Origin: an uncultured Brachyspira sp.
GTDB taxonomy: Bacteria; Spirochaetota; Brachyspiria; Brachyspirales; Brachyspiraceae
Direction: 5' to 3'
NCBI RefSeq assembly: GCF_944388875.1
Contig: NZ_CALXKQ010000017.1
Location: 1 to 63,853 of the forward strand
DNA: 63,853 nt
Under the pieces are notes generated by a model. The model saw only the letters and a list, made by a program, of their open reading frames with translations, searched no databases and was not told the DNA's origin. Below are positions 54,635-63,853 of this stretch, piece after piece (position 1 is the stretch's first letter; every line of letters starts with the position of its first letter). The position numbers were made by a program, and so were the translations under genes.

Positions 54635-55822
54635 TTAAACCCTCACCTCACCCGTAAGAAGCCTCTGCATAATACCTTTCTTCTGAAGTTTGCGTAATTC
54701 TAACTGCTTTTTGAGATTATCAATTTCAGCGTCTATAGTAGAAATCAGTTCAGATATTCTTTTTTGTTCTTCTAGATTAGGAACTTTTATTTTAATAGAT
54801 AAAAAATTTTCAGGACTAACTGATTTTCTTTCATAAACAGTACCCTTTTCATATCTTCTGACATTATGAATAAAAGATTTAGATTTAAAAATATAAGTAA
54901 AAAAATCTGCATCAAATTCTTTATTTACTTCAAAAGTAACATATATAGGTGAAAATATACCTTCTCCATAATTATTCTTACATATAACGCCAAATTTTAA
55001 ATTAGCTGGATTATAACAAATATCATTTATTTTAGTAATTTTATATTGTTTATTTTTATCTTTCACTAAAAAATCTCTTTCATATCTTTCTGTTTTTGGT
55101 ATAATACCGTCTTTAGTTAAAGAAACATGCTCTAAACTTCCATCTTTAGATTGATAAATTTTTCTTTCTTTTAGAACTTCATATAAAAATATATCTTTCC
55201 ACTCATCAGTAAAACCGTTAAATCTAACCTTACCAGTTAAAACCCTTTGCATCACTCCTTTCTTGTAAAGTTCTTTTTTTTCTATAAGTTTAGCAAGGTT
55301 TTCTATTATGTCATCGCATAATGAAAGTATATCGGCTATGCGTTTTTGTTCATCTATTGGAGGTAATGTAACCATTAACTTTTCTAATGATGAAGCGTAT
55401 ACATGTACAACAGTATGTCCCTGTCCCATTATACTAATTTCTTTTCTGCATCTGCCAAAATTCAATATATAACATAAAAATAAACTATTTAAATCAATAT
55501 TTGGTCTAAAAATTATAATATCTCCTCCAGCTAATACTTTGTAATCATCTAAAAAAGCAGCAGACTTTCCTATCTCTTCCGCTGTTTCGCCAGAACCTGC
55601 AAATAATATATCTCCTCTTTTTAATTCTGTGCCTTTTGAATTTGTATAAGATGAAATATTTTTTATTATAAAATCATATTTTGTATATATATCTCCATAT
55701 CTTACAGCTGGTACCCCAGTATCAGATAAATCTTTTTTAGATATTCCAGAACCTCTTAAAAAATAACCTATATCCTTTAATTGAAATTCCCGCCAGCCGC
55801 TTGGTAATTTGACATCTTTCAT
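54635..55822 (-). CDS. hsdS: Type I restriction-modification specificity subunit HsdS (orphan)
   Basis: Two target-recognition domains (about 8-150 and 205-345) are separated by conserved helices: PPIDEQKRIADILSLCDDI...KKGVMQRVLTGKVRF in the centre, and NLEEQKRISELISTID...KKGIMQRLLTGEVRV at the end. This is complete HsdS architecture of 395 aa. It is alone: no hsdM or hsdR is adjacent. The ATG at 55822 (MKDVKLPSGW) is preferred since AAGG lies 6 nt before it; another ATG is at 55837. Confidence 0.87.
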   Translation of the reverse strand: MKDVKLPSGWREFQLKDIGYFLRGSGISKKDLSDTGVPAVRYGDIYTKYDFIIKNISSYTNSKGTELKRGDILFAGSGETAEEIGKSAAFLDDYKVLAGGDIIIFRPNIDLNSLFLCYILNFGRCRKEISIMGQGHTVVHVYASSLEKLMVTLPPIDEQKRIADILSLCDDIIENLAKLIEKKELYKKGVMQRVLTGKVRFNGFTDEWKDIFLYEVLKERKIYQSKDGSLEHVSLTKDGIIPKTERYERDFLVKDKNKQYKITKINDICYNPANLKFGVICKNNYGEGIFSPIYVTFEVNKEFDADFFTYIFKSKSFIHNVRRYEKGTVYERKSVSPENFLSIKIKVPNLEEQKRISELISTIDAEIDNLKKQLELRKLQKKGIMQRLLTGEVRV

Positions 55823-55915
55823 AAAAGACCTTGACATTAATTAATTACAAAATAAAAAACAGTATATTGCATTTTTAATATTTATTCAAGTTCAGAAAAA
55901 AATTATATAAAACTA

Positions 55916-61334: not shown

Positions 61335-63719
61335 ATGAAGCAAAGAAAAAAAACATTTATATTATCATATTTGGCATTTATAATTATAATTTTCTTTATT
61401 ATTTCAATTTTAATTATACTTGGAAATATTCAAAGAATAGGATATTTATCTAATTTTAATCATATACTTGAAAATAAATACTATTTTAGACTTGAGTTTG
61501 AAAGCAATATATTTAAAAACAATAAAATATATACAGTTTGTCCAAATACTAATGAAATGCCTAAAAATGTTACTAATATAAGATGGGCTGGTACATATTA
61601 TGGTAATTTAGTTCTTGATGACAATAGCATACAGTTAAATAAAAATGATAAAATAGAAGACATAAAATATAAATTAAAAATAAAAAAGGATGTTATCTTT
61701 TTTGTACTATTTATTATAATACTTTTTCCAATACTTTATTTTTATATAATACCAAACATTTTTCACAATTATAAAATGTATATATTATTTTTTATAATCA
61801 ATTCTGTTCTTTATGTTTCTGTTATAAAGTTCATTATGCCTTCCTTTTCAATGATACATCTAAAATTTAATATATATGATTTTTTATATTCTTATATTTT
61901 TGTAATGACTGCATATAATCTGCTTGCATATAATCCATTAAATAAAAACTTTAAAAATATAAAAATATTATTGACTGCCCTATTTTGCATAATATCAATA
62001 TTTTCTTTTTTTGTAATAGAAATTATCAGCCTAACAGTTCTTAATATGGTTATATTATTTTCTGACATGCCTAATCTTTATGCTTCTCTTATTACAGTAC
62101 TTCCAATGTATTTGAAAATAATAACAATAACTGTAAGCATAATTTATTTTTCTTCTTTAATAATTTTTATATCATTATTTATTTTTAATATATACAAAAT
62201 GTTCAGAGAAAAAAGTAAAATATCATCATTAGTTATGACAGCTTCTATAATGTTTATAATATTCATTTTATTTTTTAAGCCTAAAAATATAGATATATGG
62301 AGTATAGATTTTCTGCGTAATGCTGAGAGAAATGGTATAATGAACACTATAAATTACAGAATAAATTATGACAGATTAAATAATATAAAGCCAAGCAAGG
62401 AATTAGTATTAGAATCAATTAATTTATTAAAAGAATATGAGGCAAAAAGAGATATAGAAACTCTATATTTAAAATCTACAAAGAATATTTTTAATAAAAT
62501 AAATAATTTGGAAAATAACATACATTCAATTTTAATTAATGCCTCAAACAAAAATACAAATTTTATTTATAATAACGAAAAAATAGATTATGATTATATT
62601 GAAAAATTAAAAAATAATTATTCAGATGTATACAGCAATATATCAAGTGATTTAGAAAAAATAGAAGATTTAAATAATAGTTTTAAAAGAGATGTATATT
62701 TAATATTTTTGGAATCATTTTATGATTATTCTCATTTCTCAAAATTATTTGAAAAAGACCCTTTCACAAAAGAATATAGAAAATGGGCTAATAATTCAAG
62801 AAAAATAGCTCCTAATGTAAACAATGGAAGTTTTTATGCAAGACTTTCGGGACTTACTGCATCCTCTCCGCTTTATCCTAAAACTCAGTCTGAAAAAATA
62901 GAAAATACTCTTCCAGACTTACTCTCAAAAAACGGATACTATACTATAGCTTTGGAAGAAGCATTAAATACATACAATTTAAAAACATTCTACCCTTCTA
63001 TAGGTTTTAAATCTCAAATATTCGGACTTGGAACTACAAATATAAATACTTATTTAAGTACAAATATTGACAATTTGGAAAGTCCTGTATTTGCTGCTGG
63101 ATTTACTATATTGGGACATACTGACTCACATTTATCAAATGATTTAAATATAGCAGAAAATAATAAAAAGTTTTTAGAATACTTTGAAGGAAATGATAAA
63201 CTTCATATAATGGAAACACTTGATAATTCAGCTATGACAGCCATTGAAATAATAAAGATAAGAGATACAATTTTAAAAACTTCTCCTAATGCCATTATAA
63301 TATTTAAGCATGATCATCTTTACCCTTATTTGAAAGCAATAATACAGCGTTCAAGTATAGATGAAAAAATAAAAACTAACTTTTTAAATGATTATAAACC
63401 TTCGCCTATACTTATTTGGGATGGTACTAATGGGGCATATAAAGCTCCTGATAATTTTGTACCAGAAAATATACCTATGTTTATAGCTTTAAATGCTGGC
63501 GTTACTAATTATAAAAATAGTATTATATCTTTGCTTTATAAAGAAGAGATAAACGGATTTATAAGTACTTATCATAAATATTATAAAGTTACAAATGATA
63601 CTCTAATATCGGAAAATAATATCAGTAAAGATTCTGAAATATTCAAATACGAAAATGCCCAGAGAATATTATCACAGGATATTTTTCAAGGCAAAAAGCA
63701 TTATTATGATATCAAATAA
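61335..63719 (+). CDS. Membrane-anchored alkaline-phosphatase/sulfatase superfamily protein (LtaS/EptA-like), 794 aa
   Basis: The N-terminal half has about seven membrane helices (about 10-30, 120-140, 145-165, 180-200, 210-240, 255-285, 295-315). The C-terminal part (about 450-790) is extracytoplasmic: VYLIFLESFYDYSHF (metal Glu), NNGSFYARLSGLTAS (possible nucleophile Ser/Thr), GHTDSH (about 594-599), and FKHDHLYP (about 650). The layout is of phosphoglycerol/phosphoethanolamine transferases. Spirochaete envelope sugars or lipids are plausible substrates, inferred. It is downstream of kdsD, consistent with an envelope pathway. Confidence 0.8.
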   Translation: MKQRKKTFILSYLAFIIIIFFIISILIILGNIQRIGYLSNFNHILENKYYFRLEFESNIFKNNKIYTVCPNTNEMPKNVTNIRWAGTYYGNLVLDDNSIQLNKNDKIEDIKYKLKIKKDVIFFVLFIIILFPILYFYIIPNIFHNYKMYILFFIINSVLYVSVIKFIMPSFSMIHLKFNIYDFLYSYIFVMTAYNLLAYNPLNKNFKNIKILLTALFCIISIFSFFVIEIISLTVLNMVILFSDMPNLYASLITVLPMYLKIITITVSIIYFSSLIIFISLFIFNIYKMFREKSKISSLVMTASIMFIIFILFFKPKNIDIWSIDFLRNAERNGIMNTINYRINYDRLNNIKPSKELVLESINLLKEYEAKRDIETLYLKSTKNIFNKINNLENNIHSILINASNKNTNFIYNNEKIDYDYIEKLKNNYSDVYSNISSDLEKIEDLNNSFKRDVYLIFLESFYDYSHFSKLFEKDPFTKEYRKWANNSRKIAPNVNNGSFYARLSGLTASSPLYPKTQSEKIENTLPDLLSKNGYYTIALEEALNTYNLKTFYPSIGFKSQIFGLGTTNINTYLSTNIDNLESPVFAAGFTILGHTDSHLSNDLNIAENNKKFLEYFEGNDKLHIMETLDNSAMTAIEIIKIRDTILKTSPNAIIIFKHDHLYPYLKAIIQRSSIDEKIKTNFLNDYKPSPILIWDGTNGAYKAPDNFVPENIPMFIALNAGVTNYKNSIISLLYKEEINGFISTYHKYYKVTNDTLISENNISKDSEIFKYENAQRILSQDIFQGKKHYYDIK

Positions 63720-63724
63720 ATAAT

Positions 63725-63752
63725 TTGACTATATATTTATTTATGGTATAAT
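63725..63752 (+). promoter_or_regulatory. Promoter of the heptanucleotide-repeat gene
   Basis: TTGACT (63725-63730), 16 nt, TATAAT (63747-63752). TAGG lies about 8 nt before the ATG at 63775. It is a strong sigma-70-type match. Confidence 0.65.
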
Positions 63753-63774
63753 GTAAGAATTGGTAGGTTTAATT

Positions 63775-63853
63775 ATGCAACAAGCAACAAGCAACAAGCA
63801 ACAAGCAACAAGCAACAAGCAACAAGCAACAAGCAACAAGCAACAAGCAACAA
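63775..63853 (+). CDS. Start of an ORF that opens with CAACAAG tandem repeats (runs off window)
   Basis: The ATG at 63775 follows the promoter and ribosome binding site and leads at once into the repeat. The visible protein is M then repeated QQATSNK. The repeat is open in all three frames, so the reading frame beyond it depends on copy number. The identity of the gene lies outside the window. Confidence 0.5.
   Translation, partial: MQQATSNKQQATSNKQQATSNKQQAT
63778..63853. repeat. CAACAAG heptanucleotide tandem repeat (10 copies plus CAACAA)
   Basis: A perfect 7-bp unit is repeated to the window edge (76 nt visible). The unit length is not a multiple of three, so gaining or losing one copy changes the downstream frame. 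This is the usual form of slipped-strand phase-variation loci. Confidence 0.95.

Follow-up and report, generated by a model that had tools for sequence, protein, structure and literature searches.

Repeat-based phase variation is well known. The Haemophilus lic, Neisseria opa and lgt, and mod genes, known from phase variation of lipo-oligosaccharide genes at the level of translation, carry simple sequence repeats (SSRs) at the coding start, inside their open reading frames (ORFs). In the pil1 and pil3 loci of Streptococcus gallolyticus, GCAGA repeats lie in a leader peptide, and phase variation has been shown experimentally (Danne et al. 2014, PMC3894217). The pil1 hairpin is a transcription terminator located 28–33 nt beyond the leader (PMC3894217). 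Here we describe a (GCAACAA)n array at the end of a 63,853-nt contig of an uncultured Brachyspira sp. (NZ_CALXKQ010000017.1, contig C17 of a 48-contig genome), which we call the window. We consider it probable that this site is a phase-variable 5' leader that controls a surface-glycan gene through frame-dependent translational coupling. As in lic, opa, lgt and mod, the arrays described below have 4-, 5- or 7-bp units near a start codon and surface glycans as targets. Unlike those genes, the window locus and most of its sister loci carry the array in a separate leader ORF.

The features of the site are collected in Table 1. The promoter is the best of four promoter-like matches in the window, and the array is the only one in the window with a unit of 3–10 bp and at least 3.5 copies (period 7, 11.0 copies, 100% matches, score 154 in Tandem Repeats Finder). 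The initial annotation, made from the letters of the window, had described a good promoter and ribosome binding site (RBS) leading to an ATG that runs into perfect 7-bp repeats, and all of these elements are confirmed. It had also read the repeats as QQATSNK cycles that stay open in all frames. That reading is correct: the unit contains no stop in any frame, and the cycles appear in all frames since the unit length, 7, is not divisible by 3. The site has one property of a slipped-strand contingency locus, a perfect short repeat with a unit not divisible by 3 in a position where frame or spacing matters, and the proposal of a contingency-type locus with the repeat right behind a start codon downstream of a good promoter is supported. 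The array measures exactly 77 bp at the end of C17 and again exactly 77 bp at the start of contig C26, where it resumes (the start of C26 is locus L021; L-numbers are our locus handles). This figure is an assembly limit and not the true length, the array having been broken during assembly; the 77-bp ends suggest the k-mer cut-off of an assembly made from short reads. From the phases of the two ends, the array length is 7m + 6 and at least 77 bp, that is 83, 90, 97 bp and so on. The unit occurs at three places in this genome. The C2 copy is internal, and the only open contig ends that carry it are the end of C17 and the start of C26; barring a missing contig, these two therefore have to join. 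Two other genomes (L060/L105 and L063/L103) likewise have the array behind the same upstream paralogue and promoter.

Table 1. Coordinates of the features at the window locus, its continuation on contig C26 (L021), and further arrays on contig C1.
Feature	Position	Strand	Remarks
Upstream paralogue, 794 aa	61335..63719	+	Homologue of the C26 gene; promoter begins 6 bp past its stop
Sigma-70-type promoter TTGACT-16-TATAAT	63725..63752	+	TTGACT 63725-63730, 16-bp spacer, TATAAT 63747-63752; 11/12 consensus bases
Leader-ORF RBS-like GGTAGG	63762..63767	+	7 nt 5' of ATG; read from the sequence
Leader-ORF start codon ATG	63775..63777	+	G is array base 1; repeat from codon 2 on
(GCAACAA)n array	63777..63853	+	Ends with the contig; resumes on C26 (L021:1-77)
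Leader tail, 88 nt	L021:78-165		Between array and main ATG
Main gene, 722 aa	L021:166-2334		Own Shine–Dalgarno site GGAG; ATG L021:166-168
Further C1 arrays	L217 (C1:22068), L225 (C1:179610), L229 (C1:261789), L216:1-84		5- and 7-bp units

Reading past the window had been proposed as a check, and on C26 an ORF does continue beyond the repeat. The initial annotation was mistaken in taking the repeat as starting at codon 2 of the main product; the ORF whose second codon it forms is a short leader. The 722-aa gene has its own Shine–Dalgarno (SD) site and ATG, and a TAA in frame stands immediately 5' of that ATG (L021:163-168), which excludes the repeat as codon 2 of the main gene and rules out fusion of the array in frame to the main ORF at the window locus. 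The three exit frames of the array stop at 0, +17 and −71 nt relative to the main ATG, the first two being stops near or over the downstream start, as in translational coupling. The main start is within reach of an array with m = 0 or 1 (mod 3) but not of one with m = 2 (mod 3). The idea that copy number switches the downstream product stands insofar as a change of copy number would alter translation; judged from the sequence, the route would be a leader ORF and coupling, not direct fusion. In-frame fusions of the kind originally pictured are found at a few sister loci (L063, L065, L066 and L068), which belong to the in-ORF SSR type represented by Haemophilus lic, by Neisseria opa and lgt, and by the mod genes.

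The mechanism we propose is as follows. Transcription would start just past the promoter, near 63760, and ribosomes would initiate at the leader ATG and translate through the repeats. Slippage at replication would add or remove one 7-bp unit and so change the frame in which ribosomes exit the array. In the permissive frames, the leader would end at the next gene's start codon or just beyond it, and a ribosome at that stop would open a hairpin that hides the SD and restart, giving the ON state. In the other frame or frames, the stop would come 50–90 nt earlier, the hairpin would stay closed and initiation would be poor, giving an OFF or low state. At the window locus, m = 0 or 1 (mod 3) would be coupled, with a stop that adjoins the ATG or follows it by 17 nt; m = 2 (mod 3) would be uncoupled. 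The rate of slippage, the re-initiation and the equation of OFF with low protein are what we infer here.

The arrangement recurs in the genus. GCAACAA in at least three copies occurs in 10 of 26 Brachyspira genomes, and the remaining 16 are without even two consecutive copies. The C2 array of the same genome and most of the others precede genes with a common N-terminal transmembrane (TM) plus beta domain (A2). The C-terminal parts of these genes differ, and include GT87 (L062), DUF2142 and DUF7657, the latter two from a Pfam scan of six array or control genes. By profile search, the N-terminal-domain family is present in all 26 genomes. We surveyed 109 regions upstream of members of this family, and 56 contain arrays, with units of 4 bp (24), 5 bp (23) or 7 bp (10) and more than ten different units; arrays with 3-, 6-, 8-, 9- or 10-bp units occur in none of the 109. 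In the window's own genome, all (AAAC)4 arrays (two loci) and all GCAACAA arrays (two loci) precede N-domain or LtaS-like genes. That the arrays are neutral microsatellites with no regulatory role is hardly credible: in many species, members of one gene family are preceded at an equivalent position by perfect arrays of several unrelated units, and the type of unit differs at related sites (for example, GCAACAA at L108 and AAAC at L132). A separate observation concerns the site between two LtaS-like paralogues, where one genome (L075:3720-4010, G018) has a (CAACA)n-type array in place of GCAACAA and another (L076:3868-4000, G015) keeps the promoter and has no array. Judged from the two sequences, this may be turnover of the unit at one site.

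The leaders of the set share the signals seen in the window. Among the 42 sister loci, a leader ATG no more than 16 nt from the array and open through it is found at 38, and an SD-like site 5' of that ATG at 31. Of the 45 sister loci with usable upstream sequence, 40 have a promoter matching at least 10 of 12 consensus bases (16% in shuffled sequence); the spacer is 16–17 bp in 39 of these 40, and the median distance to the array is 27 nt. We counted a frame as reaching the main gene if its leader stop lies at −12 or later relative to the main start. By this measure, 45 of 50 leader loci have one or more frames open as far as the main start, compared with 16.8 expected from shuffled tails. The GCAACAA loci L021, L061, L070b and L071, examined separately, all reach the main start. 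Across the related tails of L059 and L102, the open frame is kept through indels and frame changes; a conserved leader peptide is thereby disfavoured, and it seems from these sequences that ribosome passage, rather than the peptide, is conserved. The five loci that fail are exactly those with GT-rich (TTTGG-type) arrays. At L185, L186, L188, L189 and L191, (TTTGG)n stands upstream of N-domain genes with a conserved AACTCCCAGAAAAAA before the array, and no frame reaches the gene start. This class is perhaps another type of switch or a group of decayed loci. These GT-rich arrays, lacking a coupled frame, are what would be expected if arrays acted through length or spacing (by promoter context, the 5' untranslated region, or RNA or protein binding), as uspA2- and nadA-type repeats do, and not through frame; the closeness of the array to the promoter and the unstructured nature of (CAA)-like RNA point the same way. 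Yet no unit is a multiple of 3 in length, the reading frame of the leader ATG runs into the array, the main start lies within reach of one frame, and some loci are in-frame fusions, so action through length is very unlikely for the set.

Structure at the main start is enriched in the same loci. The mean folding z-score there is −1.6 for 45 array leaders and +0.4 for 26 window control genes (p 4e-6); family members without arrays average −0.1 (p 5e-4 against the array leaders). At C26, the main start has a z of −2.6 and a mean SD unpaired probability of 0.28. The stem is register-specific, with the ATG at the loop: at least 11 of 14 pairs form at offset 11 in 15 of 50 loci, as compared with 0–3 loci at 15 other offsets. 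The clearest case, L142 (z −10), has an uninterrupted 20-bp stem that takes in the SD along with the A and T of the start codon. Masking of the downstream SD thus holds statistically and not at every locus. These features resemble translational coupling with SD sequestration, in which ribosomes re-initiate where the upstream stop overlaps the downstream start (here at +4 or +11 of the main start, e.g. ATGA) and the SD lies in a stem. Unlike the known coupled pairs, which are fixed, the upstream frame here is set by a variable repeat.

As in pil1, an SSR with a unit not divisible by 3 lies in a leader ORF, slippage would shift the leader stop relative to a downstream hairpin, and ribosome passage is proposed to open that hairpin and turn on downstream surface genes. 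We therefore considered transcription attenuation of the pil1 kind, in which translation of the leader in its long frame prevents a terminator hairpin from forming before the gene. Besides that described precedent with a similar leader-plus-repeat logic (PMC3894217), a weak AT-rich stem (−6.9 kcal/mol) with nine T after it is present in the tail on C26 and could work likewise. However, C26 yields no hit in a terminator scan, only five of the surveyed leader tails have at least six T in a row behind a stem below −5 kcal/mol, and both frame reach and SD hairpins are much more widespread than terminators. Attenuation is unlikely to explain the window locus, and an intrinsic terminator is rejected as the general mechanism. 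We do not place the Brachyspira set in the pil1 type because it has no general terminator; instead, leader stop and main start overlap, and the stem holds the main SD. Other differences from pil1 are that the units have several sequences, that over 50 loci of a single genus carry them, and that the genes behind them encode membrane glycan enzymes. Rho-dependent polarity would also respond to frame: an early leader stop would leave untranslated RNA and lower downstream transcription, with no special role for the hairpin. The uncoupled frames do leave 50–90 nt untranslated before the gene, often with the SD masked, and polarity may act jointly with coupling. It leaves the register-specific stem around the start codon unexplained, and we regard it as quite unlikely to be the mechanism.

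The assembled sequences include both frame states. Of 40 assembled leaders, 23 are in a coupled frame and 17 are not. L150 and L151, from two species and with flanks 96% identical, carry 10.2 and 11.4 copies, respectively, and are in opposite frame states. At L063, there is no separate start; the main frame runs into the array and has no start codon in its first 80 codons. Since the main gene is fused to the array there, frame matters, and as assembled the ATG is out of frame.

Several points weigh against frame-dependent coupling as the explanation. The copy-number differences are between orthologues and paralogues, not within one strain, and plasmid records searched for a strain comparison gave no match. 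The join of C17 to C26 is deduced. Main starts were assigned by an SD rule, and the main genes have their own SDs, so translation of some might proceed uncoupled. Because the array leaders are related by descent, the p-values given above overstate independence and are too small. A strong hairpin is present at only about a third of the loci (z < −2 in 33%), and L069 and L070a have none at the main start.

The switched product is a polytopic membrane enzyme, most likely a phosphoglycerol- or phosphoethanolamine-type transferase acting on a surface glycan, as suggested by a structural model. An AlphaFold2 model of the C26 protein, built with 21 homologues, has a mean pLDDT (predicted local distance difference test) of 74. 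The best Foldseek match to it is 2w5r (Staphylococcus aureus LtaS, E 4e-8), followed by GacH, EptC and YejM, at identities of only 14–16% to the best matches. The model has a predicted sulfatase-fold extracytoplasmic domain behind the TM helices, and is in this like the LtaS/GacH/EptA transferases. Unlike them, the C26 protein has the extra N-terminal TM plus beta domain that is common to GT-C-like proteins. E382 and an H581-D582-H583 motif are invariant in the 21 homologues. Against Pfam and NCBIfam, the protein has no LtaS- or sulfatase-family match and only a sub-threshold one to DUF1947. The upstream paralogue in the window is 73% identical to the C26 protein over residues 449–793 and 45% over 2–380, and the two genes are 80% identical in DNA over 1071 bp. 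By eye, their 3' ends (window 63420-63708 and L021:2012-2304) are nearly identical and the remainder is diverged, as after gene conversion. The gene immediately upstream of the paralogue is KpsF/KdsD-like, which fits a surface-glycan setting. Farther off, the window encodes a type I restriction specificity subunit (54635-55837, minus strand; Methylase_S 4.5e-26).

Arrays are also found elsewhere. Four more perfect arrays, all of 5 or 7 bp, lie in 400 kb of C1 that were scanned without a target (Table 1); one of them, CAAGC in 15.6 copies at C1:261789, has the same leader layout before another gene, a 270-aa open frame. Two of the in-frame fusions are in genome G018. At L066:3581-5200 (C61, minus strand), (CAACAAG)17.7 leads in frame into a gene for a DNA methyltransferase (N6_N4_Mtase 1.7e-47) that also has an Mrr-like nuclease domain (Mrr_cat 7e-7), and the other two frames close within three codons. 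By its sequence, this is a candidate phase-variable methyltransferase in a Brachyspira metagenome-assembled genome. At L065:2945-4279 (C60, minus strand), a CAACAAG array is in frame with a secreted protein that resembles an outer-membrane barrel; the 441-aa open frame has a signal-peptide-like start and no informative Pfam match. Outside Brachyspira, arrays of the same heptamer, in 4–19 copies, occur in 8 of 367 Spirochaetota genomes (L093-L101). In the Treponema-like family f19 (L093-L096 and L098), they stand right behind a TTGACA-type promoter with no obvious ORF downstream.

The initial annotation knew of no such locus described in Brachyspira, and we likewise found no description of repeat-based phase variation for this genus in the literature searched, which was that available without subscription. 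The Brachyspira genome papers searched mention neither phase variation nor tandem repeats, the parts seen of papers that contain both words use them in passing, and a 2025 review mentions neither Brachyspira nor leader peptides. On balance, we favour the view that Brachyspira has a large undescribed phase-variable set, in which leader-ORF repeats of several unrelated units switch modular surface-glycan membrane enzymes through frame-dependent coupling. Brachyspira species are gut colonisers of pigs, birds and humans, and serotypes are defined by their lipo-oligosaccharide. If the proposal is true, the variability of the surface glycan would have a simple basis that is readable in sequence and traceable in existing isolates. 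Short-read assemblies, which break in such arrays, would have hidden these surface-glycan switches, and annotation confined to repeats inside main ORFs is predicted to miss switches of the leader type. There would be a second way for a leader repeat to control a gene, a translational counterpart of the one leader-attenuation switch described, in use at dozens of loci, and very many surface-glycan combinations could coexist in a clonal population.
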